From the NCBI RefSeq assembly GCF_002443295.1, contig NZ_BAOS01000016.1, forward strand, positions 1-52,073: a stretch of 52,073 nucleotides of DNA. The letters run 5' to 3'. The notes below the pieces were generated by a model. That model searched no databases, was not told where the DNA came from, and worked only from the letters and a program-made list of their open reading frames with translations. Position numbers and translations under genes: made by a program. Positions 3,222 to 49,518 of this stretch are shown one piece after another. Position 1 is the first letter of the stretch; every line of letters starts with the position of its first letter. Origin of the DNA: Candidatus Scalindua japonica. GTDB taxonomy: Bacteria; Planctomycetota; Brocadiia; Brocadiales; Scalinduaceae.

Positions 3222-3347
3222 ACATATAATACGATTGTTGGACGAAGCCGCTATCGCGGAGAACAAAATCGGAAATTTATTATATAATGTAACCTCACAC
3301 CCTCAACGGGAGGGTGAATCTATTAACAAATAGGAGGTTACAGGTCT

Positions 3348-4255
3348 ATGAAAACATTATCTCAATCCGATTTCAACAAAAATTACCAAACGCATCTAAA
3401 GCACCTACGCTTGAAAGGACTCCGGCCAAAAACAATCGAGGCTTATTCACGTGCCATCCGACGGATCGGTGATTATTTTGACAATCAGATACACGATCTA
3501 TCTGAACAGCAACTACTTGACTATTTTTCCAATCTCCTCAATACCCATTCATGGAGCGCAGTCAAATTAGACCTCTACGGACTAAAGTTTTTCTACACTC
3601 ATGTGCTTCATAAGCGTTGGGAGCAAGTAAATCTTATTAAACCACCCAAAACGCAACGTTTGCCCGATATTGTCACCATTAATGAAGCCCACCAACTTTT
3701 CCAGGTGACGAGAAAACTCAGTTACCGGGCCTTCTACTTTGTTCTTTACAGTCTTGGTCTCCGCCTGGGTGAAGGACTACGTCTTGAGGTTAGCGATGTC
3801 GATTCTCAGCGAATGCGGGTGCATATCCGCGATAGCAAAGGCAATAAAGACCGTTTCGTACCCCTGCCAAAGGTAACCCTGAATCTCTTACGCCGTTTTT
3901 GGCTTGTTCATCGCAATCCTGTCTTTCTATTTCCAGGCCGTCATGGTGGCTTGAAATCAGCCCACCTGGCAAAAACACCTCTGAATAGAAATGGCGTTCA
4001 GGCCACTCTGCGTAAGGTAGCCCGGGAGTGTGGAATTAAAAAAAAATTACACCACACAGTCTGCGACACAGCTACGCAACCCATCTGATTGAGGCGGGTG
4101 TTGATCTGCTTGAAGTACAAAAAATCCTCGGCCACCACAGTATTTTAACCACTGCCAAATATACCCACCTGACCTCTCATACAAATCGTAATGCCTTGCA
4201 ATTAATTAATGATTTGATGAATGGTTTTTCCATAGAATGGGGGAATGTTATATGA
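3348..4255 (+). CDS. Tyrosine recombinase/integrase, probably made by -1 frameshift at A9 (copy 1)
   Basis: Frame 0 runs to 4088 and encodes the SAM-like core-binding domain (residues 10-90) and the first half of the catalytic domain, including RLGEGLRL (first catalytic Arg) and SKGNKDR (beta-hairpin Lys). At nine consecutive A (about 4038-4046) the conserved sequence moves to the -1 frame: [18 protein letters not shown], then LGHHS, then the nucleophile in KYTHL, ending with TGA at 4253-4255. Rereading one A gives a 302-residue protein with all catalytic residues; frame 0 alone lacks HxxR, His and Tyr. The A9 is identical in all three copies, favouring programmed frameshifting or transcriptional slippage over random damage. 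It resembles the XerC/IntI clade but lacks the extra IntI-specific insertion. Its stop overlaps the transposase start (ATGA). AGGAGGT lies upstream of the ATG. Confidence 0.8.
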
Positions 4256-5370
4256 TATCTCTCTCCTCTATAATTGAGACCTTCATTGCTGACTTTATCA
4301 CTCTTTATCATGGTTCGATCCTGCCAAGTCAATTCAAAGCCCTGGCAGCCATGAAGGATTGTCGCACTACGCAAAGCCGCGTCATGCTGGTCCAATGTAA
4401 TGACTGTGAAAAACAGGTTTTTGTACCGCACTCCTGCGGTAACCGCAATTGTCCTCATTGTCAGAGTCATGAGTGTCAGCAGTGGTTGGAGCGTCAACTG
4501 AAAAAAGAAGTGCCTGCTGACTATTTTATGCTCACCTTTACTATACCCAAAGAGCTTCGATCATTAGCATGGCAGCATCAACGCTTGCTTTACTCGATAA
4601 TGATACAGTGTTGTTGGGAAACCGTAAAAACCTTTGTCCAAAATGACAGCGTATTACAAGGAAACGCTGGAGCCATCACTGTTTTGCACACCCACTCTCG
4701 CTCTCTCGATTACCACCCGCATATCCATCTGGTAATGCCAGCCGGGGCCATCAATCAGAAGAAAAAGCTTTGGAGCTTCAAAAAAAGCGAAGGAAAGACG
4801 CGGTACCTTTTCAATCACAAAGCGCTGGCTAAAGTGTTTCGAGCAAAAATGCTCGATGCCGTGAACAAAGCGGCTCTTACGCTTCCAGTTAATTATCCCA
4901 AAACATGGGTCGTCGATTGCAAATTTGTCGGCAACGGTGAAAAGGCACTGGTCTATCTTGGTCGTTATCTCTACAAAGGGGTCATTCAAGAGAAAGATAT
5001 TATTACGTGCAAAGATGGTCAGGTGACCTTTCGTTACCAGGATAGTAAGAGCAAAAAAATGCTCACAAGAACACTTCCCGGCCCGCAGTTTCTCAGGTTG
5101 ATTCTCCAGCATGTTCTACCCAAAGGTTTCAGGCGAACACGGAACTTTGGTTTCCTCCACCCTAATAGCAAACGCTTGATTGCATTGCTTCAGTACCTTA
5201 CCGGTATCAACCCGAATAAGTCGTCAGCCTGGTTCAGAGAGCGTCCAAAGCTTACGTGCAAATGCTGTGGAGGAATAATGAAGATCATAAAAACGATGAT
5301 ACCTCCATCACACAAATCCAGGTCTTTCCCCTACAAGTTAACAAAAGAGGAGGCTGTTCTGGTTATGTAA
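4252..5370 (+). CDS. IS91-family HUH (Y2) transposase, copy 1
   Basis: About 372 residues. The N-terminal zinc-binding domain carries [13 protein letters not shown]. The HUH motif is HPHIHLV, where the two His coordinate metal for ssDNA nicking. The tyrosine motif [10 protein letters not shown] carries the nucleophile(s). A C-terminal CKCCGG may bind a second zinc. Family knowledge: IS91 transposases move by rolling-circle replication via single-stranded intermediates. I chose the ATG at 4252, which overlaps the recombinase stop as ATGA with GGGGGA about 9 bases upstream; an in-frame ATG at 4237 lacks a good site. Coupling to an upstream tyrosine recombinase is known for a subset of IS91-like elements. 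The gene is intact and the same protein is encoded by the other two copies. Confidence 0.93.
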
Positions 5371-5605
5371 TCGAATCCGCTATGCATCTAAGATTTGCAA
5401 AAACGGCATTATCGGGTCGAGATGGCCCCCGTTTGCCCAAATTTGAGGTAAAATGGCCGAAAAACCATGTTCTGTAGCTCCTAAAGCATGACGACAGCAA
5501 TTGAAAAATCCACTTCTTTGGCTTCATAGCTTCTGCGGTAAAAAAGAGAAGCAATCTTCATAAGATATTTTCTTATACAATGTTTAGCACCCAAACAACG
5601 GGCTT

Positions 5606-5666
5606 GTCCAACAAACGGTTCAGATTGTGGTTCGTCCCTCACACAATCTAACCTTATTCGTTATAA
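5606..5666 (+). repeat. attC: attC (59-base element) at the 3' end of element copy 1
   Basis: Layout on the plus strand: 1L GTCCAAC, 5-base spacer, 2L GTTCAGATTGTG, short loop, 2R CACAATCTAAC, 7-base spacer ATT..CG, then the crossover G|TTATAA. 2L and 2R pair fully apart from one extra C in 2L, the hallmark extrahelical base that sets attC orientation. The organisation parallels the aadA-type attC. 1L is the exact reverse complement of GTTGGAC at the element's left end, as expected for a cassette that circularises. In this copy the six bases after the G (TTATAA) fit TTRRRY poorly because they belong to the neighbouring DNA. Confidence 0.8.
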
Positions 5667-7928: not shown

Positions 7929-8492
7929 ATGGCGGAAGAGAAAAAAGAAAGATTCCAACTGAAAGTTGGTAACATAATGCTTGAGACCACAAAAGTTCTT
8001 CCGGTGGTATTGAGCCTAGTGGTTATTGTTGTCGCTATCCTCGGGTTTCAGCTAATACGGTCAGGCAAGCTAACAAATATCGAATTTCAACCTGCAACAA
8101 TTATTGCGCCTACTGATACCAACGTGAGCAAACGTTTACAAAGCCTAGAAGATAGAGTAAATGAACTCTCGGACATAATCAATACCTCTTCTCAGGAGAT
8201 GCTAGCATCAATAGGTCTCGACAAAGTACAGAAGAGTGTAAAATCTGTATCTTCTGAACTCGATGCCCTCAAGGTTATAATAGTAGAGAACCCAGAGAAA
8301 GCCTTAGCAATTCCCCTCCTTAGAAAAGAGATGGACGAATTGGAGCACAAACATGCTGTGCTAGCCGTATCAACAAAAGATCAAATTGACAGGATTTATG
8401 ACTTTTCTAAATGGTTTTTGGGTCTAATGATAACCTTAGCCATTGGTTTGATTACCATGGGTTTCGTTCGTAGGCCTAAAGGAGACAACTAA
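7929..8492 (+). CDS. Two-TM coiled-coil membrane protein, unknown function
   Basis: 187 residues. TM helix 1 is at residues about 22-43 (VLPVVLSLVVIVVAILGFQLI). A hydrophilic, mostly helical segment with coiled-coil character (residues 58-150, VSKRLQSLEDRVNELSDII onward) follows, then TM helix 2 at about 160-182 (WFLGLMITLAIGLITMGFV) and a short basic tail. No catalytic motif is visible. The topology suggests a membrane-anchored helical hairpin, a form seen among membrane-perturbing or sensor partners in defence pairs, but nothing here proves that. The stop codon ends at the last base before element copy 2, and the AACTAAC at that junction is the outer-box-like target of the insertion. The start ATG is 29 bases after a GTTAGGC motif. 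Confidence 0.6.
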   Translation: MAEEKKERFQLKVGNIMLETTKVLPVVLSLVVIVVAILGFQLIRSGKLTNIEFQPATIIAPTDTNVSKRLQSLEDRVNELSDIINTSSQEMLASIGLDKVQKSVKSVSSELDALKVIIVENPEKALAIPLLRKEMDELEHKHAVLAVSTKDQIDRIYDFSKWFLGLMITLAIGLITMGFVRRPKGDN

Positions 8493-8547
8493 CGAATAAG
8501 GTTAGATTGTGTGAGGGACGAACCACAATCTGAACCGTTTGTTGGAC
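8487..8547 (-). repeat. attC: attC (59-base element) of element copy 2
   Basis: The same 55-base attC body as in copies 1 and 3, read on the minus strand: 1L GTCCAAC (8547-8541), 2L with the extra C, 2R, and crossover G|TT at 8493/8492. The downstream bases are TTAGTT, contributed by the neighbouring gene's end, one mismatch from TTRRRY. On the plus strand the same DNA reads AACTAAC..GTTGGAC and could be mistaken for an attC of the upstream gene, but the extra base places the orientation on the minus strand. Confidence 0.78.
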
Positions 8548-8782
8548 AAGCCCGTTGTTTGGGTGCTAAACATTGTATAAGAAAATATCTTATGAAGATT
8601 ACTTCTCTTTTTTACCGCATAAGCTATGAAGCCAAAGAAGTGGATTTTTCAATTGCTGTCGTCATGCTTTAGGAGCTACAAAAAAAGCCTTGGTAACCAT
8701 TTTACCTCAAATTTGGGCAAACGGGGGCCATCTCGACCCGATAATGCCGTTTTTGCAAATCTTAGATGCATAGCGGATTCGA

Positions 8783-9901
8783 TTACATAACCAGAACAGC
8801 CTCCTCTTTTGTTAACTTGTAGGGGAAAGACCTGGATTTGTGTGATGGAGGTATCATCGTTTTTATGATCTTCATTATTCCTCCACAGCATTTGCACGTA
8901 AGCTTTGGACGCTCTCTGAACCAGGCTGACGACTTATTCGGGTTGATACCGGTAAGGTACTGAAGCAATGCAATCAAGCGTTTGCTATTAGGGTGGAGGA
9001 AACCAAAGTTCCGTGTTCGCCTGAAACCTTTGGGTAGAACATGCTGGAGAATCAACCTGAGAAACTGCGGGCCGGGAAGTGTTCTTGTGAGCATTTTTTT
9101 GCTCTTACTATCCTGGTAACGAAAGGTCACCTGACCATCTTTGCACGTAATAATATCTTTCTCTTGAATGACCCCTTTGTAGAGATAACGACCAAGATAG
9201 ACCAGTGCCTTTTCACCGTTGCCGACAAATTTGCAATCGACGACCCATGTTTTGGGATAATTAACTGGAAGCGTAAGAGCCGCTTTGTTCACGGCATCGA
9301 GCATTTTTGCTCGAAACACTTTAGCCAGCGCTTTGTGATTGAAAAGGTACCGCGTCTTTCCTTCGCTTTTTTTGAAGCTCCAAAGCTTTTTCTTCTGATT
9401 GATGGCCCCGGCTGGCATTACCAGATGGATATGCGGGTGGTAATCGAGAGAGCGAGAGTGGGTGTGCAAAACAGTGATGGCTCCAGCGTTTCCTTGTAAT
9501 ACGCTGTCATTTTGGACAAAGGTTTTTACGGTTTCCCAACAACACTGTATCATTATCGAGTAAAGCAAGCGTTGATGCTGCCATGCTAATGATCGAAGCT
9601 CTTTGGGTATAGTAAAGGTGAGCATAAAATAGTCAGCAGGCACTTCTTTTTTCAGTTGACGCTCCAACCACTGCTGACACTCATGACTCTGACAATGAGG
9701 ACAATTGCGGTTACCGCAGGAGTGCGGTACAAAAACCTGTTTTTCACAGTCATTACATTGGACCAGCATGACGCGGCTTTGCGTAGTGCGACAATCCTTC
9801 ATGGCTGCCAGGGCTTTGAATTGACTTGGCAGGATCGAACCATGATAAAGAGTGATAAAGTCAGCAATGAAGGTCTCAATTATAGAGGAGAGAGATATCA
9901 T
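8783..9901 (-). CDS. IS91-family HUH (Y2) transposase, copy 2
   Basis: Encodes the same protein as copies 1 and 3: N-terminal CxxC..CxxxxCxxC zinc site, HPHIHLV HUH motif, [10 protein letters not shown] tyrosine motif and C-terminal CKCCGG. The start at 9901 overlaps the recombinase stop (ATGA). The 17-base variable patch lies beyond its stop codon, so the coding region is unaffected. Confidence 0.92.
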
Positions 9902-10805
9902 ATAACATTCCCCCATTCTATGGAAAAACCATTCATCAAATCATTAATTAATTGCAAGGCATTACGATTTGTATGAGAGGTCAGGTGGGTATATTTGGCA
10001 GTGGTTAAAATACTGTGGTGGCCGAGGATTTTTTGTACTTCAAGCAGATCAACACCCGCCTCAATCAGATGGGTTGCGTAGCTGTGTCGCAGACTGTGTG
10101 GTGTAATTTTTTTTTAATTCCACACTCCCGGGCTACCTTACGCAGAGTGGCCTGAACGCCATTTCTATTCAGAGGTGTTTTTGCCAGGTGGGCTGATTTC
10201 AAGCCACCATGACGGCCTGGAAATAGAAAGACAGGATTGCGATGAACAAGCCAAAAACGGCGTAAGAGATTCAGGGTTACCTTTGGCAGGGGTACGAAAC
10301 GGTCTTTATTGCCTTTGCTATCGCGGATATGCACCCGCATTCGCTGAGAATCGACATCGCTAACCTCAAGACGTAGTCCTTCACCCAGGCGGAGACCAAG
10401 ACTGTAAAGAACAAAGTAGAAGGCCCGGTAACTGAGTTTTCTCGTCACCTGGAAAAGTTGGTGGGCTTCATTAATGGTGACAATATCGGGCAAACGTTGC
10501 GTTTTGGGTGGTTTAATAAGATTTACTTGCTCCCAACGCTTATGAAGCACATGAGTGTAGAAAAACTTTAGTCCGTAGAGGTCTAATTTGACTGCGCTCC
10601 ATGAATGGGTATTGAGGAGATTGGAAAAATAGTCAAGTAGTTGCTGTTCAGATAGATCGTGTATCTGATTGTCAAAATAATCACCGATCCGTCGGATGGC
10701 ACGTGAATAAGCCTCGATTGTTTTTGGCCGGAGTCCTTTCAAGCGTAGGTGCTTTAGATGCGTTTGGTAATTTTTGTTGAAATCGGATTGAGATAATGTT
10801 TTCAT
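9898..10805 (-). CDS. Tyrosine recombinase/integrase, -1 frameshift at A9 (copy 2)
   Basis: Same organisation as in copy 1. The frame-0 product stops at 10065 and lacks HSLRH and the nucleophilic Tyr. The nine-A run (nine T on the plus strand near 10107-10115) is retained unchanged, and a -1 shift yields the 302-residue full recombinase ending at 9898. Survival of the identical homopolymer in an inverted, partly diverged copy supports a functional frameshift or very recent spread; sequence alone cannot separate the two. Confidence 0.78.
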
Positions 10806-11196
10806 AGACCTGTAACCTCCTATTTGTTAATAGATTCACCCTCCCGTTGAGGGTGTGAGGTTACATTATATAATAAATTTCCGATTTTGTTCTCCGCGAT
10901 AGCGGCTTCGTCCAACAATAGCATCAACACAGACTGTCAACTTCGCTGGCAGCCGGTTATGACCTGTCTTTCCAATGCCAAAGGAAACATCTTCTCTATT
11001 GACAATTGACTTTTAGATTGGCAGGCCGCAATGGCGGAAGGCCGAATAACGAGTATGTACACGTGAGACCGAAATTGACAATACAACGAACAAATTGATG
11101 TTTTGGGCTATATGTAGTAAAATGACGGGTAAATGACATGGAGAAGACCGTATGGTATTCCAAAAAGGCAAGAAACTAGCGGGAGAATAGCGAAAA

Positions 11197-38000: not shown

Positions 38001-38059
38001 TTATTTTAGACGATGACTTATATGAAAAATTTCAATACCGTAAACTATACACTCCTGTT

Positions 38060-38557
38060 TTATTCGTAGTGCGCAGGAACCCACGTCTTCTCCTCATACT
38101 CCTGCCAGTAGCCAGAAGATACGGGTCGCTCCTGGTAATGACCTTCAATTCTTCGATTCCCTTCATATCTCTCGGCAATCCATACTCTCTCTTTTTTTGA
38201 AGTATCAACCCATTTTCTTTTCTTTGTATATTCATAATGACCTTCAATGTAATTTTTCCCCCGTCCGGAGCTGGATTGTCTTTCCATGTAAAGCTGTCTC
38301 TGTAACTGTGCATTTTGCGCCTCTTCCCTTTTTTTTTCCGCATAATCTCCGGTAAGTGCACCTCCCAATGCACCTACTCCCGCACCAATCATAGCACCCG
38401 TACTTGCGCTACCCGCTAAAGCTCCAAAACCAGTTCCCAGAGCTGCACCGGTTGCCGTCCCAATTGCAGTACCTTTTTGTGTAGTAGTCAAACAACCATT
38501 GGAAACAATCGCAATTGCCATGACACATATTATTGTACTGATTAATTTTATCTTCAT
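38060..38557 (-). CDS. Glycine-zipper outer-membrane lipoprotein (unit A)
   Basis: 165 residues. Signal with lipobox: IVSNGC, where Cys22 would be lipidated after Lgt action. A glycine zipper (GTAIGTATGAALGTGFGALAG, about residues 29-70) with small-residue repeats typical of SlyB/17-kDa-antigen-type proteins follows, then a charged coiled segment and an aromatic C-terminus with HYE repeats (EGHYEYTKKRKW, EGHYQERPVSSGYW, VPAHYE). Probably envelope integrity. Divergently transcribed from the ECF sigma gene, whose regulon it likely joins. The unit B counterpart is broken, so this is the working copy. Confidence 0.85.
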   Translation of the reverse strand: MKIKLISTIICVMAIAIVSNGCLTTTQKGTAIGTATGAALGTGFGALAGSASTGAMIGAGVGALGGALTGDYAEKKREEAQNAQLQRQLYMERQSSSGRGKNYIEGHYEYTKKRKWVDTSKKERVWIAERYEGNRRIEGHYQERPVSSGYWQEYEEKTWVPAHYE

Positions 38558-38594
38558 TTTTCTCTCCTCCCTGATTAAGATTTACAATAGAGAT

Positions 38595-39164
38595 ATGTTA
38601 GTGTTTACTAATTTAGACGAAAATACAATCATTGATGCTTTAGAAGGTGATGCAGACGCTTTTGAGAGCATATACAATGAGTACTCAGGATTTGTATATA
38701 ATGTTGCATTAAGAGTGGTAAACAGTGCAGACGAAGCACAGGAAGTTACTCAGGAAGTATTTCTCACTGTTTACCGGAAACTTAAGAGTTTCAAGTTCAA
38801 ATCATCCCTTAAAACATGGATTTACAGGATAACCGTTAATATGGCTATTGACTATGCCAGAAAAAGATCAAAAGAACGGGACCATTCAGAACTGTATACA
38901 GAAAATAATAAACGGCAGAAGACTATTGATACTGTTAGTGAGGAAATTGAGAGAGAACAGCAGGAGAAAACAATCTCAACTTTACTGGAAACTCTTAATC
39001 CTGATCAAAGAGCTTGTATCGTATTAAGAAGTATCGAAGGCCTAAGTTATCAAGAAATAGCGGATGCACTAAACATTAATATTAATACCGTACGTACCAG
39101 AATAAAAAGGGCCAGGGGAAAACTGATAGATTTAAGAAAAGAGATGGTGATAAATGAAGTGTGA
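38595..39164 (+). CDS. ECF-type RNA polymerase sigma factor (unit A)
   Basis: About 190 residues. Region 2 includes DADAFESIYNEYSGFVYNVALRVV and KTWIYRITVNMAIDYARK. Region 4 includes LNPDQRACIVLRSIEGLSYQEIADALNININTVRTRIKRAR. The sequence before GDADAF is unlike unit B: a deletion has joined the divergent leader to the coding region, so the start (ATG at 38595) is new, without a ribosome-binding site or the unit B promoter. The stop overlaps the anti-sigma start by 11 bases. Expression may be altered or lost even though the core domains are intact. Confidence 0.85.
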   Translation: MLVFTNLDENTIIDALEGDADAFESIYNEYSGFVYNVALRVVNSADEAQEVTQEVFLTVYRKLKSFKFKSSLKTWIYRITVNMAIDYARKRSKERDHSELYTENNKRQKTIDTVSEEIEREQQEKTISTLLETLNPDQRACIVLRSIEGLSYQEIADALNININTVRTRIKRARGKLIDLRKEMVINEV

Positions 39165-39651
39165 ACAGGTAAAAGAACTCATTCTTACCGATTATCTTGA
39201 TGGACAGATGGAAAAAGCGAAGAAAACTCAACTAGAGGAACACCTGACAACTTGCAGGGATTGCCGGGAATATGAACTTCTAACGAGGACTACAGTTGTT
39301 GAACCATTCTATAACATTGAAAAACACAATCCACCTGAAGCAACATGGAACAAAACCAGGGAACAGATTATTGTAGAACAACAAATGCATAATAACTCCA
39401 TTGCTGACTTATTTAACAGAGTAAAAACACTCTTTTATTTTCCGAAACCTGCATTTATTGCTGCAACAGTAGTCGTTTTGTTTGCTGTAGCAACAACTGT
39501 TATTAAATTTCCTTTAGAAAATCAGGAAACCAGAAAAGGAGTTTCTGATAGTCAGGTTGAATGCATCAACTATTTGATGAGTGTTTTTGACGAAGAACTG
39601 ATTAATGGAGATGACGACCTCGAAACCTCAATAGAATATTTTTTTCTATGA
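39154..39651 (+). CDS. Zinc-binding anti-sigma factor, membrane anchored (unit A)
   Basis: 165 residues. The N-terminal ZAS domain has His30, Cys34 and Cys37 in EEHLTTCRDCREY plus Cys3, the HxxxCxxC signature that binds Zn and sequesters an ECF sigma. One membrane helix (about 105-122, AFIAATVVVLFAVATTVI) is followed by an acidic C-terminal segment. Overlap with the sigma gene enforces co-translation. The signal probably comes from the envelope, given the Spy-like protein downstream. Confidence 0.88.
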   Translation: MKCEQVKELILTDYLDGQMEKAKKTQLEEHLTTCRDCREYELLTRTTVVEPFYNIEKHNPPEATWNKTREQIIVEQQMHNNSIADLFNRVKTLFYFPKPAFIAATVVVLFAVATTVIKFPLENQETRKGVSDSQVECINYLMSVFDEELINGDDDLETSIEYFFL

Positions 39652-39662
39652 TTTAACTTTAT

Positions 39663-39875
39663 ATGAATTTCGATTTTACACATTTTAATCAATGTTGTCC
39701 GGTCAGGATTTTGCAACGCTCCATCAATTGCCGCATTCTTTTAGCGGGAATCTATAGGATGAACGTTTCTTTTAGTTTAAATATAGAAGAAAACAACTTA
39801 AACAAAAATCAATTACATACGGACCATAAACAGTTTAGAAGATATCCTTTTAGCGATCTGTGGGGCTCTGCGTGA
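39663..39875 (+). CDS. Doubtful small ORF conserved in both units (unit A)
   Basis: 70 codons directly after the anti-sigma stop. The counterpart in unit B (47839-48066) keeps the frame open, but most base differences between the two change the amino acid, which argues against strong protein selection. No ribosome-binding site or recognised domain. It may be an untranslated leader to the Spy-like gene. Confidence 0.25.
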   Translation: MNFDFTHFNQCCPVRILQRSINCRILLAGIYRMNVSFSLNIEENNLNKNQLHTDHKQFRRYPFSDLWGSA

Positions 39876-39939
39876 GAACTTATTTTTCCCATCACACCAA
39901 AACGCCAGGATCGCTAAGAGAATGAAGTAGAAGTTAATA

Positions 39940-39966
39940 TTTACACATAGTGCATCTATGGGTAAA
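39940..39966. promoter_or_regulatory. Palindrome upstream of the Spy-like gene (unit A)
   Basis: TTTACACATAG, loop TGCAT, CTATGGGTAAA: 11-base arms with one mismatch, 34 bases before the start codon. The unit B version is perfect. Possible operator or RNA hairpin controlling the Spy-like protein. Confidence 0.5.
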
Positions 39967-40000
39967 TGAGTAATTTAAAAAAATTAAAGGAGCAGTAGCC

Positions 40001-40477
40001 ATGAATATCAAGTTGAAAAAAGTTTTTTTCGCATTAAGCATAGTCGGGGTGACACTGTTATCATCAAATGTTTATTCACAACCACCGGGAGAACATTTCA
40101 ACAGGCATCAAGAAATGCGGGAAAAAATGAGGGCTAAAAAGCAGGAGGCGTTCAAACAACTCGACCTTAGTCCTGAACAGGAAAGGCTGATACAAGCTCA
40201 CCGAAATAACCATAGAGAACAGGGTGATGCGTTTCAAGAAAATATGAGAGCAAAGAAAGAGGCAATCAGAAATGAGCTCCAGAAAGAAGAGTTCGATCTG
40301 GAAAAGATCCACGCAATCCATAATGAATTGAAAAACTTAATCCTGGAAAAAGCCGATCATAAATTAAACGGCATACTGGAAGTAAGAAAAATATTAACCG
40401 CCGAACAATTCAGGAAATTTTGTGAATTGAGAAAAGAGATACGTCCAATGCAAGGTAGGAGAAAGGGGTTCTATTGA
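40001..40477 (+). CDS. Spy/CpxP-like periplasmic stress protein (unit A)
   Basis: 158 residues. Signal peptide (residues 1-26, LSIVGVTLLSSNVYSQ). The mature protein is highly charged and helical with two LTxxQ-like motifs: LDLSPEQERLI and ILTAEQFRKF. This is the architecture of Spy, CpxP and ZraP, periplasmic ATP-independent chaperones and stress sensors with metal-responsive members. AAAGGAG lies 12 bases before the start. Placed after a sigma/anti-sigma pair, it is a likely target or modulator of that pair. Confidence 0.82.
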   Translation: MNIKLKKVFFALSIVGVTLLSSNVYSQPPGEHFNRHQEMREKMRAKKQEAFKQLDLSPEQERLIQAHRNNHREQGDAFQENMRAKKEAIRNELQKEEFDLEKIHAIHNELKNLILEKADHKLNGILEVRKILTAEQFRKFCELRKEIRPMQGRRKGFY

Positions 40478-40770
40478 TCCACAGAACCGCTTAGGGCATT
40501 ACTTTAGTTTATTATTGGAATGATAAAATCAGGAGATACCATGCTTTTTTGTTTTATCATGAAAGTGCAAACATTAGGTATGGTGTCCCCCAATTTCTGT
40601 TTATCAACCTTAATGATTGACTGAAAATCAAATGCATTTTTGGTCAACTGGATTTAATTGTTGGGCTATTCCGCTTTCGCGGAGAACAAAATCGGAAATT
40701 GATTACATTTCGTAAACTCACACCCTCAACGGGAGGGTGAATCTATTAACAAATAGGAGGTTACAGGTCT

Positions 40771-41678
40771 ATGAAAACATTATCTCAATCCGATTTCAAC
40801 AAAAATTACCAAACGCATCTAAAGCACCTACGCTTGAAAGGACTCCGGCCAAAAACAATCGAGGCTTATTCACGTGCCATCCGACGGATCGGTGATTATT
40901 TTGACAATCAGATACACGATCTATCTGAACAGCAACTACTTGACTATTTTTCCAATCTCCTCAATACCCATTCATGGAGCGCAGTCAAATTAGACCTCTA
41001 CGGACTAAAGTTTTTCTACACTCATGTGCTTCATAAGCGTTGGGAGCAAGTAAATCTTATTAAACCACCCAAAACGCAACGTTTGCCCGATATTGTCACC
41101 ATTAATGAAGCCCACCAACTTTTCCAGGTGACGAGAAAACTCAGTTACCGGGCCTTCTACTTTGTTCTTTACAGTCTTGGTCTCCGCCTGGGTGAAGGAC
41201 TACGTCTTGAGGTTAGCGATGTCGATTCTCAGCGAATGCGGGTGCATATCCGCGATAGCAAAGGCAATAAAGACCGTTTCGTACCCCTGCCAAAGGTAAC
41301 CCTGAATCTCTTACGCCGTTTTTGGCTTGTTCATCGCAATCCTGTCTTTCTATTTCCAGGCCGTCATGGTGGCTTGAAATCAGCCCACCTGGCAAAAACA
41401 CCTCTGAATAGAAATGGCGTTCAGGCCACTCTGCGTAAGGTAGCCCGGGAGTGTGGAATTAAAAAAAAATTACACCACACAGTCTGCGACACAGCTACGC
41501 AACCCATCTGATTGAGGCGGGTGTTGATCTGCTTGAAGTACAAAAAATCCTCGGCCACCACAGTATTTTAACCACTGCCAAATATACCCACCTGACCTCT
41601 CATACAAATCGTAATGCCTTGCAATTAATTAATGATTTGATGAATGGTTTTTCCATAGAATGGGGGAATGTTATATGA
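40771..41678 (+). CDS. Tyrosine recombinase/integrase, -1 frameshift at A9 (copy 3)
   Basis: Identical organisation to copies 1 and 2: frame 0 ends at 41511, and the conserved HSLRH, GHHS and catalytic Tyr continue in the -1 frame after nine A (41461-41469), ending at 41678 in an ATGA overlap with the transposase. The full product would be 302 residues. Confidence 0.78.
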
Positions 41679-42793
41679 TATCTCTCTCCTCTATAATTGA
41701 GACCTTCATTGCTGACTTTATCACTCTTTATCATGGTTCGATCCTGCCAAGTCAATTCAAAGCCCTGGCAGCCATGAAGGATTGTCGCACTACGCAAAGC
41801 CGCGTCATGCTGGTCCAATGTAATGACTGTGAAAAACAGGTTTTTGTACCGCACTCCTGCGGTAACCGCAATTGTCCTCATTGTCAGAGTCATGAGTGTC
41901 AGCAGTGGTTGGAGCGTCAACTGAAAAAAGAAGTGCCTGCTGACTATTTTATGCTCACCTTTACTATACCCAAAGAGCTTCGATCATTAGCATGGCAGCA
42001 TCAACGCTTGCTTTACTCGATAATGATACAGTGTTGTTGGGAAACCGTAAAAACCTTTGTCCAAAATGACAGCGTATTACAAGGAAACGCTGGAGCCATC
42101 ACTGTTTTGCACACCCACTCTCGCTCTCTCGATTACCACCCGCATATCCATCTGGTAATGCCAGCCGGGGCCATCAATCAGAAGAAAAAGCTTTGGAGCT
42201 TCAAAAAAAGCGAAGGAAAGACGCGGTACCTTTTCAATCACAAAGCGCTGGCTAAAGTGTTTCGAGCAAAAATGCTCGATGCCGTGAACAAAGCGGCTCT
42301 TACGCTTCCAGTTAATTATCCCAAAACATGGGTCGTCGATTGCAAATTTGTCGGCAACGGTGAAAAGGCACTGGTCTATCTTGGTCGTTATCTCTACAAA
42401 GGGGTCATTCAAGAGAAAGATATTATTACGTGCAAAGATGGTCAGGTGACCTTTCGTTACCAGGATAGTAAGAGCAAAAAAATGCTCACAAGAACACTTC
42501 CCGGCCCGCAGTTTCTCAGGTTGATTCTCCAGCATGTTCTACCCAAAGGTTTCAGGCGAACACGGAACTTTGGTTTCCTCCACCCTAATAGCAAACGCTT
42601 GATTGCATTGCTTCAGTACCTTACCGGTATCAACCCGAATAAGTCGTCAGCCTGGTTCAGAGAGCGTCCAAAGCTTACGTGCAAATGCTGTGGAGGAATA
42701 ATGAAGATCATAAAAACGATGATACCTCCATCACACAAATCCAGGTCTTTCCCCTACAAGTTAACAAAAGAGGAGGCTGTTCTGGTTATGTAA
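41675..42793 (+). CDS. IS91-family HUH (Y2) transposase, copy 3
   Basis: Same protein as in copies 1 and 2: N-terminal zinc site, [17 protein letters not shown] and CKCCGG are all intact. The start overlaps the recombinase stop with GGGGGA upstream. Confidence 0.92.
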
Positions 42794-43028
42794 TCGAATC
42801 CGCTATGCATCTAAGATTTGCAAAAACGGCATTATCGGGTCGAGATGGCCCCCGTTTGCCCAAATTTGAGGTAAAATGGCCGAAAAACCATGTTCTGTAG
42901 CTCCTAAAGCATGACGACAGCAATTGAAAAATCCACTTCTTTGGCTTCATAGCTTCTGCGGTAAAAAAGAGAAGCAATCTTCATAAGATATTTTCTTATA
43001 CAATGTTTAGCACCCAAACAACGGGCTT

Positions 43029-43089
43029 GTCCAACAAACGGTTCAGATTGTGGTTCGTCCCTCACACAATCTAACCTTATTCGTTAGGC
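43029..43089 (+). repeat. attC: attC (59-base element) of element copy 3, complete consensus
   Basis: 1L GTCCAAC (43029-43035), 2L with the extra C, 2R CACAATCTAAC, and 1R GTTAGGC (43083-43089), a full match to GTTRRRY. Of the three copies this junction looks most like a true cassette-to-cassette boundary. Confidence 0.85.
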
Positions 43090-45106: not shown

Positions 45107-45190
45107 GCCTAACGCCAGTATGAGCTGGCCGGCTGAGATGCCAGCAAATCGGAAGAGTATTCTCCGGTCAGCTCTATACTATTGTTAGAA
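45107..45190 (-). repeat. attC: attC-type recombination site between two minus-strand genes
   Basis: Minus strand: TTCTAAC (1L, 45190-45184), spacer, stem GAGCTGACCGG, 31-base loop, stem CCGGCCAGCTC, spacer, GTTAGGC (1R, 45113-45107). The 1R is a full consensus match and the TIR gene starts 8 bases later; the preceding gene stops 6 bases before 1L. A different attC subtype from that on the 2423-bp elements. Confidence 0.75.
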
Positions 45191-45946: not shown

Positions 45947-46037
45947 AAATCATGATTAAAGACCTGACCCCATTTTCCCTATTCATAATTTTAACTTATA
46001 GGAAAAATTTCAATACCGTAAACTATACACTCCTGTT

Positions 46038-46533
46038 TTATTCGAAGTGCGCAAGAACCCACGTCTTCTCTTCATACTCCTGCCAGTAGCCCGAAGATAC
46101 GGGTCGCTCCTGGTAATGACCTTCAATTCTTCGATTCCCTTCATATCTCTCGGCAATCCAGACTCTCTCTTTTTTTGAAGTATCAACCCATTTTCTTTTC
46201 TTTGTATATTCATAATGACCTTCAATGTAATTTTTCCCGCGTCCGGAGCTGGATTGTCTTTCCCTGTAAAGCTGTCTCTGTAACTGTGCATTTTGCGCCT
46301 CTTCTCTTTTTTGTCCGCATAATCTCCGGTAAGTGCACCTCCCAATGCACCTACTCCCGCACCAATCATAGCACCCGTACTTGCGCTACTGCTAAAGCTC
46401 CAAAACCTGTTCCCAGGGCTGCACCGGTTGCCGTCCCAATTGCCGTACCTTTTTGTGTAGTAGTCAAACAACCACTGGAAACAATCGCAATTGCCATGAC
46501 ACATATTATTGTACTGATTAATTTTATCTTCAT
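46038..46533 (-). pseudogene. Glycine-zipper lipoprotein, broken copy (unit B)
   Basis: Compared with the intact unit A gene, two single-base deletions are visible: one near 46390 (ACCCGCT reduced to ACTGCT) and one near 46310 in a T-run. They remove two bases in total and do not restore the frame. The signal and lipobox (IVSSGC) remain at the start. Confidence 0.8.
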
Positions 46534-46700
46534 TTTTCTCTCCTCCCTTATTAAGATTTATAATAGAGATTCTTTAGTATTTACTAATTTAGACGACAAA
46601 ATTATCATAAAGTTTCAATATACATCCGTATTTAACTTCTTATCATATTATTACCAGTGACAAACCAACCATAACTGTTCTATAAAAAAACACTTATGCC

Positions 46701-46730
46701 TTGACAAAAAATTTTGTCTAAATAAATAAA
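46701..46730 (+). promoter_or_regulatory. Promoter/operator of the unit B sigma gene
   Basis: TTGACA at 46701-46706 overlaps the palindrome GACAAAA-AA-TTTTGTC (46703-46718). AT-rich -10 candidates (TAAATA at 46723) follow. This whole segment is absent from unit A. A related TTTAGACGACAAAATT lies upstream near 46588 in opposite orientation. Confidence 0.45.
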
Positions 46731-46791
46731 TTTGTTTAAAATTTCATGGAACTTTCTCTCAATATTCATGTCTAATTAGTAGAAGGATGCA

Positions 46792-47355
46792 ATGGAAAAT
46801 AACATAACCGAAAACACAATCATTAATGCTTCAAAAGGTGATGCAGACGCTTTTGAGAGCATATACAATGAGTACTCAGAATTTGTATATAATGTTGCAT
46901 TAAGAGTGGTAAACAGTGTAGACGAAGCACAGGAAGTTACTCAGGAAGTATTTCTCACGGTTTACCGGAAACTAAAAAGCTACAAGTTCAAATCATCCCT
47001 TAAAACATGGATTTACAGGATAACCGTTAATATGGCTATTGACTATGCCAGAAAAAAGTCTAAAGAACGGGACCATTCAGAACTGTATACAGAGAATAAA
47101 AAACAGCAGAAGACTATTGGTACTATTAGTGAGGAAATTGAGAGAGAACAGCAGGAGAAAACAATCTCAACTTTACTGGAATCTCTTAATCCTGATCAAA
47201 GAACCTGTATTGTATTAAGAAGTATCGAAGGCTTAAGTTATCAAGAAATAGCGGATGCACTAAACATTAATATTAATACCGTACGTACCAGAATCAAACG
47301 GGCCAGGGAAAAACTGATAGATTTAAGAAAAGAGATGGTGATAAATGAAGTGTGA
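46792..47355 (+). CDS. ECF-type RNA polymerase sigma factor (unit B)
   Basis: 187 residues with a normal start: ATG at 46792 preceded by AGAAGGA. Region 2 (DADAFESIYNEYSEFVYNVALRVV.. WIYRITVNMAIDYARKK) and region 4 (LNPDQRTCIVLRSIEGLSYQEIADALNININTVRTRIKRA) are complete. Overlaps the anti-sigma start. With an intact leader this is the copy more likely to be regulated normally. Confidence 0.9.
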   Translation: MENNITENTIINASKGDADAFESIYNEYSEFVYNVALRVVNSVDEAQEVTQEVFLTVYRKLKSYKFKSSLKTWIYRITVNMAIDYARKKSKERDHSELYTENKKQQKTIGTISEEIEREQQEKTISTLLESLNPDQRTCIVLRSIEGLSYQEIADALNININTVRTRIKRAREKLIDLRKEMVINEV

Positions 47356-47842
47356 ACAGGTAAAAGAACTCATTCTTACCGATTATCTTGATGGACAGAT
47401 GGAAAAAGTGCAAAAAACTCAACTAGAGGAACATTTGACAACCTGCAGGGATTGCAGGGAATATAATCTTTTAACGAGGACTGCTGTTGTTGAACCATTC
47501 TATAACATTGAAAAACATAATCCGCCTGAAGCAACATGGAACAAAATCAGGGAACAGATTTATGTAGAAAAACCGCTGCAGAATAACTCCATTGCTGACT
47601 TATTTAACAGAGCAAAGAAACTCTTTTATTTTCCGAAATCTGCATTTGCTGCTGCAACAGTAATCGTTTTGTTTGCTGTAGCAGCAACTGTTATTAAATT
47701 TCCTACAGAAAACCAGGAAATCGGAAAAGGAGTTTCTGATAATCAAGTTGAATGCATCAACTATTTGATGAGTGTTTTTGACGAAGAACTGATTAATGGA
47801 GATGACGACCTCGAAACCTCAATAGAAGATTTCTTTCTATGA
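47345..47842 (+). CDS. Zinc-binding anti-sigma factor, membrane anchored (unit B)
   Basis: 165 residues with the HxxxCxxC site (EEHLTTCRDC) and a membrane helix (AFAAATVIVLFAVAATVI). About 10 percent of residues differ from unit A, mostly in the linker and periplasmic part, while the zinc site is unchanged. Whether each anti-sigma still recognises both sigmas cannot be told from sequence. Confidence 0.88.
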   Translation: MKCEQVKELILTDYLDGQMEKVQKTQLEEHLTTCRDCREYNLLTRTAVVEPFYNIEKHNPPEATWNKIREQIYVEKPLQNNSIADLFNRAKKLFYFPKSAFAAATVIVLFAVAATVIKFPTENQEIGKGVSDNQVECINYLMSVFDEELINGDDDLETSIEDFFL

Positions 47843-48066
47843 TTCACCTTTATATGAATTTCGATTTTACATATTTTAATCAATGTTGTCCGGTCAGGAT
47901 TTTGCAGCGCTCCATCAATTGCCGGATTCTTTTAGCGGGAATCTATAGGATGAACGTGTCTTTTAGTTTAAATATAGAAGAAAAGAGCTTAAACAAAGAT
48001 CAATTACATACCGACCATAAACAGTTTAGAAGATATCCTGTTAGTGATCTTTTGGGCTCTGCGTGA
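47839..48066 (+). CDS. Doubtful small ORF conserved in both units (unit B)
   Basis: 75 codons overlapping the anti-sigma stop by four bases. Same caveats as for unit A: no ribosome site, no domain, and many amino-acid-changing differences between copies. Confidence 0.25.
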   Translation: MIHLYMNFDFTYFNQCCPVRILQRSINCRILLAGIYRMNVSFSLNIEEKSLNKDQLHTDHKQFRRYPVSDLLGSA

Positions 48067-48123
48067 GAACTTCCATCACACCAAAACGTCAGGATCGCCA
48101 AGAGAATGAATTAAAAGTTGATA

Positions 48124-48150
48124 TTTACGCATAGTGCATCTATGCGTAAA
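48124..48150. promoter_or_regulatory. Perfect palindrome upstream of the Spy-like gene (unit B)
   Basis: TTTACGCATAG, TGCAT, CTATGCGTAAA: 11-base perfect arms, 33 bases before the start codon. Conservation of position in both units suggests a protein-binding or RNA-hairpin control element. Confidence 0.55.
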
Positions 48151-48183
48151 TGAGTAATTTAAAAAATTTAAGGAGCAGTAACC

Positions 48184-48660
48184 ATGAATATCAAGTTGAA
48201 ACAAGTTTTTTTCACATTAAGCATAGTCGGGGTGACACTGTTATCATCAAATGTTTATTCACAACCACCTGGAGAACATTTCAACAGGCATCAAGAGATG
48301 CGGGAAAAGATGAGGGCTAAAAAGCAGGAAGCGTTCAAACAACTCGATCTTAGTCCTGAACAGGAAAGACTGATACAAGCTCATAGAGAGAATCACAGGG
48401 GACAGAAAAGTGAGTTTCAAGAAAATATGAGAGTAAAGAAAGAGGCAATCAGAAATGAGCTCCAGAAAGAAGAGTTCAATCTGGAAAAGATTCACGCAAT
48501 CCATAATGAACTGAAAAACTTAATCCTGGAAAAAGCCGATCATAGATTAAACGGTATCCTGGAAGTAAGAAAAATATTAACCGCCGAACAATTCAGGAAG
48601 TTTTGTGAATTGAGGAAGGAGATGCGTCCAATGAAAGGTAGGAGAAAGGGGTTCTATTGA
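48184..48660 (+). CDS. Spy/CpxP-like periplasmic stress protein (unit B)
   Basis: 158 residues, signal peptide ending near VYSQ, and LTxxQ-type motifs LDLSPEQERLI and ILTAEQFRKF, as in unit A. Differences from unit A cluster in the segment HRENHRGQKSEFQENMRVK. AAGGAG precedes the start. Confidence 0.82.
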   Translation: MNIKLKQVFFTLSIVGVTLLSSNVYSQPPGEHFNRHQEMREKMRAKKQEAFKQLDLSPEQERLIQAHRENHRGQKSEFQENMRVKKEAIRNELQKEEFNLEKIHAIHNELKNLILEKADHRLNGILEVRKILTAEQFRKFCELRKEMRPMKGRRKGFY

Positions 48661-49079: not shown

Positions 49080-49518
49080 CTACACTACTATGAACTCATC
49101 CGACACCCTCTTGTCTTTCCTCCCACTTCATCTTTTGACTTATAGGGCTGACATTTCTCCATACGTTTCCGTATGGGACAAGGAGGGCTTCCCCAGTTGA
49201 TTGCGCCTCTTTCTATCCGTGTCGCCGCTGATACCCCGCCACCGTCCTCACTACCTTATTAGCCAGTGTTGGTATGAGAATCATGCCTTCGCCTATTAGT
49301 GAGAGGCTCGGCCAGTGGATTTTACACTTTTACGAGGCTACTTATACGTTCACATTAGTTACAACCCGGATATTTGCTCGCCCGCCTTATAGCGGACTTT
49401 ATCAATGGGCTTCAGCTCGTTACGTTTCCATATCAAGCTGCCATTATAGCTACATGGCTCCGGCTTTTACCATGGCGGGACTTCCACCCGCGAGAAGGCG
49501 CAACCCTTAGCTGGGCAC
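48780..49518 (-). mobile_element. Truncated group II intron
   Basis: The minus strand begins GTGCCCAGC (49518, GUG intron start) and continues with GGGTGGAAGTCCCGCC and other intron 5' ribozyme sequence for about 430 bases, then the intron-encoded protein. The 3' two thirds of the protein and intron domains V-VI are missing; the break at about 48780 abuts duplicated unit B. Confidence 0.75.

Follow-up and report, generated by a model that had tools for sequence, protein, structure and literature searches.

The window analysed here, a stretch of 52,073 nucleotides, is the whole of contig C16 of the 4.81 Mb genome of Candidatus Scalindua japonica. It carries three copies of an element with genes for a tyrosine recombinase and an IS91-type HUH transposase, whose right end resembles the attC sites of integron gene cassettes. 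A preliminary description of the window had reported three copies of 2,423 bp between the same crossover-like points, and this was confirmed by the coordinates. The copies and the parts of copy A are listed below.

3238..5660, + strand: copy A, the complete element (G|TTGGAC...ATTCG|TT), 2,423 bp, with ends common to the host copies
3238..3259, + strand: left end with the TTGGAC core and the small inverted repeat CCGC-TATC-GCGG (putative terIS), read from the sequence and similar in relatives
3348..4088, + strand: N-terminal part of the tyrosine recombinase, frame 0, 246 aa (Pfam Phage_integrase and Phage_int_SAM_4)
4038..4046, + strand: A9 run, conserved putative -1 frameshift site (host copies and relatives)
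4043..4255, + strand: recombinase, C-terminal part, -1 frame (LGHHS, KYTHL), from hand reading and family alignments
4237..5370, + strand: IS91-type HUH transposase, 377 aa (NCBIfam transpos_IS91, Pfam Y2_Tnp and Zn_Tnp_IS91)
5606..5660, + strand: attC-like right end (putative oriIS), from the attC model, covariation and folding
8493..10915, - strand: copy B, 2,423 bp, inverted repeat
40661..43083, + strand: copy C, 2,423 bp; its first 80 bp (TTGGGC) diverge, otherwise as in copy A

The Pfam and NCBIfam matches bear out the earlier statement that a tyrosine recombinase and an HUH transposase lie between the G|TT points. The right end, in contrast, had been placed at 5666; the element ends at 5660, and the six bases that follow (TTATAA) are flanking sequence serving as the R' box. 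In copy A the right end is made up of R'' (GTCCAAC, 5606-5612), a hairpin with an extra C in L'' and the terminus ATTCG. GTCCAAC had been described as the exact reverse complement of the other end. This holds for copies A and B, but not for copy C, where TTGGGC leaves one mismatch. Copies C and A differ at 11 of 2,423 positions, all within the first 80 bp, and the remaining 2,343 bp are identical. The left end of copy C (40661-40740) looks as if derived from another subfamily; variant left ends were also seen in the host copies at loci L008 and L022. Copy B starts directly after the stop codon of the open reading frame 7929-8492 (flank ...CAACTAA|C).

Multiplication in the host genome is like that of an insertion sequence (IS): 36 transposase matches were found, 23 of them of full length with 98-100% identity. 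The 23 host copies with both ends span 2,422-2,424 bp. Left ends in the host read G|TTGG[A/G]C, and among those listed each one follows a G, a position that the search pattern left free. The right ends are ACCTTATTCG with L008 as the single variant, and TT follows 28 of 29 of them. The transposase of copy A reached 363.6 bits with transpos_IS91 (cut-off 125). HPH.H and three nearby tyrosines, which we take to be the IS91/HUH motifs, are invariant in a six-row alignment. A genome scan gave 421 relatives, of which 79 loci were retained, chiefly from Beta- and Gammaproteobacteria. Relatives from Vibrionaceae and E. coli with 40-42% identity have the same ends and the same target type.

The right end was examined with an attC covariance model (Infernal) trained on 16 attC sites, none of them an element end. 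Three were resistance-cassette sites, one came from the host integron and the rest from loci near relatives. The model includes both helices, R and L, as well as the extra L'' base; about 15 of the attC matches in the relatives' loci are its own training sites, whose polarity had been assigned from that base. Over the whole window only three matches were obtained at E <= 10, namely the ends of copy C (20.4 bits, E 0.0043) and copy A and the following site outside any element.

45107..45190, - strand: separate canonical attC, 30 bits, E 1.5e-5

Among 30 host loci the model matched 20 element ends (11.8-20.4 bits). In 87 other loci 37 element ends were matched in 35 loci, at full length and in canonical polarity (13.4-31.7 bits). 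Thus the attC polarity described earlier, in line with the genes, was recovered by an independent model, and the attC-like end is kept in relatives, where a lack of conservation would have spoken against the preliminary description.

Folding had also been proposed there, for the bottom strand of 5606-5666. As DNA, the joined ends reached -14.0 kcal/mol (z -4.8) on the bottom and -12.6 kcal/mol (z -3.8) on the top strand; for either strand 0 of 200 shuffles were as good. For 30 distinct junctions, with the ends joined as in a circle, 97% of the cells are paired, and changes on both sides occur in 8 of 19 pairs. On four of five measures 0 of 500 shuffles were as high, on the fifth (further pair types) 27 of 500. 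Sliding the pairing partners abolishes the signal. Seven of the eight covarying pairs lie in the L helix, and extended complementarity of the R helix changes in concert in L101, L116 and L120. The extra base of L'' is C in 23 of the 30 aligned junctions, T in two (L088, L152) and missing in two (L095, L109); three Vibrionaceae rows align differently and are not comparable. This covariation supports the predicted hairpin fold of the joined ends. As a separate observation, the last ~22 bases are repeated head to tail two to three times in L156 (near 2396-2503) and at the right end of L125, which may be a trace of repeated nicking.

Two cases allowed the insertion to be compared with an empty site. 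When the flanks of host locus L007 are joined, they match an empty copy in L072 along 157 bases, with one mismatch and no gap; hence this insertion is scarless and without target duplication. In the E. coli plasmid RCS41_p, an IncC plasmid, the element is flanked by aadA1 and qacEdelta1 in a class 1 integron, and joining the flanks gives a 60-mer that is found intact in the attC_aadA1 of another plasmid. In both cases tested, the sequences are those of an insertion without scar or duplication.

For the target consensus, 72 of 113 loci with both ends and a plausible length were retained. The script required G at -1, which was also seen in the host without that requirement. T was found at +1 in 70 and at +2 in 71 copies, A/G at +3 in 71, G/T at +4 in 65, A/G at +5 in 67 and C/T at +6 in 55. 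On the left side, T occupies -3 in 45 of 70 copies and -2 in 42 of 70, not counting L081 and L105, whose left ends were misplaced; the counts of the right flank are unaffected. The target is TTG|TTA(G/T)(A/G)(C/T), in effect the integron core GTTRRRY.

At 28 loci the attC model found an attC on the opposite strand which ends six bases within the element, always at the identical offset; 24 of these targets reach at least 18 bits, scored with the element's own bases serving as R''. From this constant offset, the element sits in R'' of the target attC and, with its TTGGAC start, provides a replacement R'' (GTCCAAC), so that the sequence of the invaded attC is rebuilt. The rebuilt site would probably remain functional. 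Among the host copies, the model recognised an attC at the target of L023. For L021 and L022, which belong to the array next to the integron integrase gene, an attC target was read from the sequence, and L025 and L026, whose left parts are missing, are attC-like from the right side only. Judged by eye, the target of copy C is similar to one half (R''-L'') of an attC. The targets of L083, L084, L088, L101, L102, L106, L111, L112 and L158 are likewise attC-like by eye. In L123 and L135 (Accumulibacter) the right flank looks, on inspection by eye, like another copy's transposase gene.

Orientation was counted in the 87 related loci, turned so that the element reads forward and with the element ends excluded. 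With at least 18 bits, 70 attC matches are antiparallel to the element and none is parallel. These 70 are spread over 40 loci (36 genomes, 3 plasmids); as matches within one array are not independent, counting by locus is fair. At any score 84 are antiparallel and two parallel, and one of the latter (L097, 15 bits) overlaps a reverse match of 52 bits. The integrase recombines the bottom strand of attC, which fixes the orientation of cassettes (PMC11023631, in part), and cassettes therefore lie parallel. Insertion by the integrase would yield the opposite orientation to that seen.

The recombinase gene changes frame. Its -1 frame part ends with TGA at 4253-4255, overlapping the start of the transposase gene, and the C-terminal catalytic part is kept across the transition. 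All 26 host copies in which the run could be located have A9, as has the Candidatus Scalindua relative L088. After 23 of 86 loci without an anchor had been dropped, 63 were readable, and 52 of these show the same transition, at A8 in 44, at A7 in six and at A9 in two (the 52 include 12 near-copies from a single Accumulibacter genome). Two loci show a different shift. In nine the recombinase is in frame, among them five copies from Vibrionaceae and E. coli without the A run. Decay of the gene was considered as well and rejected, because the same transition occurs in 52 of the 63 readable relatives. In most members the recombinase is apparently made via a programmed -1 frameshift or slippage.

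Six full-length recombinases, four of them from the attC clade, score below every NCBIfam cut-off. The best model is of XerA type for five and IntI for one; thus, profile scores alone do not single out IntI. With the IntI model TIGR02249 (cut-off 265 bits) they reach 154-189 bits, and the frame-0 part in the window reaches 93.7 bits. The catalytic-domain insert specific to IntI (I2), which docks the extra-helical bases of attC (PMC7790495, in part), is missing from each of the eight element recombinases in the alignment. A tree was built from 61 recombinases; in it, a branch with 100/100 support separates 24 Xer proteins from the 11 IntI and 26 element sequences. The element clade (25) has 96/91 and IntI 100/100, and the distant row L194 is unplaced. 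A smaller tree, with nine other recombinases and four XerC/D, gave 92/70 for the grouping of IntI with the elements, with long-branch warnings. Near-identical and short recombinases had been removed. As the sampling of Xer and IntI was narrow, mostly planctomycete, the grouping of the element recombinase with IntI apart from Xer is a lead and not a proof.

Taken together, we consider it likely that this is a multi-copy, two-gene IS91-type HUH element which prefers attC sites as targets and whose right end mimics an attC. IS91-family elements nick at their origin, replicate and form single-stranded circles, without target duplications (PMC9330008, in part). By the proposed mechanism, the transposase would nick at the attC-like right end, displace one strand and halt at the left end, and in the resulting circle the joined ends ATTCG|TTGGAC would form a closed attC-like hairpin. 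It is plausible that the HUH enzyme in this way supplies the single strands needed for attC folding, as had been suggested earlier. Right end and real attC would offer the enzyme the same layout, a hairpin followed by a few bases and T[C/T]G|TT (or its complement on the other strand). This likeness fits one enzyme cutting both, and insertion driven by the transposase is favoured for this reason. The circle would insert at R'', antiparallel to the cassettes and without duplication. By turning the broken R'' into GTCCAAC, the TTGGAC start would rebuild the target attC, so that the element could be carried along in a cassette array that stays intact; at other places it would use plain G|TT(A/G) sites. 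The recombinase, in most members presumably the -1 frameshift product, may act on the same junction or resolve intermediates. The complementarity of R'' and left end is better explained by two jobs, the putative closing of the circle junction and the rebuilding of the invaded R'' seen in the sequences.

Several results weigh against this interpretation. Of 85 loci, 13 without a left end and four more with less than 100 nt of flank were left out of the count of attC targets. With the model (E <= 10), an attC target was found in only 27 of 56 loci outside one Accumulibacter genome and in 0 of 12 loci of that genome; at most host copies no attC was detected at the target, which is a plain G|TT site. 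The hairpin strength of the target is only modestly above that of the other side (p 0.02, 68 copies, with L105 still misplaced); by set, p was 0.09 for the host (24), 0.047 for plasmids (6) and 0.14 for Genome Taxonomy Database (GTDB) genomes (38). Compared with 324 control sites p was 0.002. A box-matching attC score of at least 13 was reached by 13 of 72 targets (18%), not clearly above the null of 147 of 1,238 control sites (11.9%) and 145 of 1,421 permuted pairings (10%); this score was too strict on spacing, and the covariance model was used instead. The element ends score 11.8-31.7 bits, below many real attC sites (up to 60). In the window the end of copy A (13.5 bits, E 0.25) is not significant alone and that of copy B was unmatched at E <= 10, so that the covariance model, a check called for in the preliminary description, recovers copy C, copy A weakly and copy B not at all. 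The R helix, formed by the left end and R'', covaries in one of seven pairs only, and uncompensated variants of R'' such as GTACAAC occur. The target of L089 (334-385) scores higher in parallel (17.9 bits, just under the 18-bit line) than antiparallel (12.9 bits) and may be one possible exception to the antiparallel rule. No closed circle junction was found in the sequence searched.

An alternative is that the tyrosine recombinase inserts the element, i.e. the HUH enzyme copies it out and the recombinase pastes it in, by recombining the attC-like site of the circle with R'' of a target attC folded from the top strand. We regard this as unlikely, though it has more in its favour than the other alternatives. 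The target consensus covers the 7-base core GTTRRRY, as read by integrases, and the enzyme groups with IntI and keeps its catalytic part across the frame transition. Furthermore, a construct without extra-helical bases recombines at R'' with partial loss of strand choice (PMC2727003, in part). However, the enzyme is without the I2 insert that docks these bases in IntI (PMC7790495, in part), and GTT-side insertion without duplication fits IS91 transposases generally (PMC9330008, in part, for the lack of duplications). Moreover, no clear second inverted core was seen at the dispersed targets in the host and in Accumulibacter.

It is quite improbable that this is an ordinary IS91-type element whose origin hairpin is attC-like by chance. 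IS91 origins carry hairpins next to GTTC-type targets. The window ends reach just 13.5 and 20.4 bits with copy B unmatched, and the end hairpins of distant recombinase-bearing members do not score as attC. Against chance, an independent attC model matches the ends in 20 of 30 host and 35 of 87 other loci, and the same clade inserts in attC.

Least probable, and rejected on the antiparallel orientation and the position R'', is an integron gene cassette with transposition genes moved by the integrase of the host integron, the logic assumed in the preliminary description: the canonical start G|TTRRRY, the attC-like end of canonical polarity, the element copies beside the host IntI gene and the higher parallel score of the L089 target speak for it, and against it stand the orientation (antiparallel in 84 of 86 matches overall and in all 70 that reach 18 bits), the insertion at R'' and not R', the many copies outside arrays at plain G|TT sites, the IS-like multiplication and a host IntI frame broken by two stops in its C-terminal part. 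This gene adjoins a cassette array with several element copies.

L071:6297-7244 (G000:C22:136297-137244): host integron integrase gene, 430 bits to TIGR02249

The likely attC-mimicking IS91-type element was compared with known systems. With the IS91 family, including the recombinase-bearing ISAzo26, it shares the transposase family, the GTT-type target side, the upstream tyrosine recombinase gene and, in the two cases tested, the lack of target duplication. In contrast to that family, its right end scores as attC, its clade inserts in attC and its recombinase gene has a conserved frame transition. The IS91 target tetranucleotide is GTTC/CTTG, to which GTT(A/G) is similar, not identical. For ISShvi3, an IS91-like element of a Shewanella integron, the part of its source that was available does not describe attC as its own end and states that no IS was found interrupting attC sites. 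Our guess is that ISShvi3 belongs to the attC-ended clade. Among the titles and abstracts listed in searches of the open-licence literature no attC-ended, attC-targeting IS91 clade was found; ISfinder notes or other reports may exist.

The target of group IIC-attC introns is the bottom strand of attC, which they enter at R'' (TTGT/T) in the orientation opposite to cassettes (PMC7923331, in part). Place and orientation of insertion are thus shared with the element, but these introns are retroelements with a ribozyme and a reverse transcriptase. We know of no attC-like end in them. Within copies A-C no Rfam group II match was obtained; one lies elsewhere in the window (49354-49493), and group II intron domains (Rfam) were found in the host integron array at L072:704-869, L072:466-554 and L072:2875-2963. 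An intron piece ending near L072:962 abuts, by eye, the same attC sequence used by copy L021, and two unrelated kinds of element may share this R'' spot. IS1111 elements are also found at attC (PMC11187229, in part). ISKpn4 and ISPst6 of the IS1111-attC group have the same targeting habit, but a DEDD (IS110-type) transposase with a target-selecting RNA and no HUH enzyme. Integron cassettes share the layout R''-L''-L'-R' with the extra base, the TTRRRY start and a related recombinase; a G|TTRRRY start together with an attC end, as in a cassette, was found for two of three window ends and 20 of 30 host loci. The element differs by antiparallel insertion at R'', a recombinase without the IntI insert, two transposition genes and dispersed copies.

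By copying themselves, carriers of attC would scatter attC-like sites next to genes of any kind, and new cassettes might be made in this way. Such elements enter antibiotic-resistance integrons without destroying attC, and one class 1 integron of an E. coli IncC plasmid has a copy. With an IntI-related recombinase that has no insert for reading single strands and with attC-like ends at hand, the origin of integrons becomes directly testable, by phylogeny and by cross-use of sites. That integrons arose from such elements, or have a common ancestor with them, is a speculative and rather doubtful idea. As a joint claim it would make the recombinase of IS91-type elements the ancestor or the sister of IntI and would derive attC from the R''-hairpin-R' end of these elements, the IntI insert having been added later for single-strand hairpins.

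In the wider family, an annotated recombinase gene also lies upstream in six plasmid relatives of greater distance (28-33% identity). The ends of these six do not score as attC. Several distant relatives have a similar left end, some with a complementary core. In L195 (1360-1387) and L198 (1330-1356) the insertion lies just after another palindrome, e.g. CCCTTATGGAAAGCTTTCCATAAGGG. From these few loci, hairpin targeting may be general in the wider group, with the attC clade specialised. No relatives of the element were found in viral contigs, and no relative of the recombinase of the E. coli element in phages at E <= 1e-30. A plasmid of Shewanella sp. ANA-3 (L199, 42430-42683) has a stretch of 254 bases with 95% identity to the E. 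coli element's right end, which points to a Shewanella-type origin of the class 1 integron copy. Finally, the window contains two copies of a ~2.3 kb segment (38016-40274 and 45994-48457) with matched blocks of 91-99% identity, the first directly left of copy C and the second ~2.9 kb to its right.

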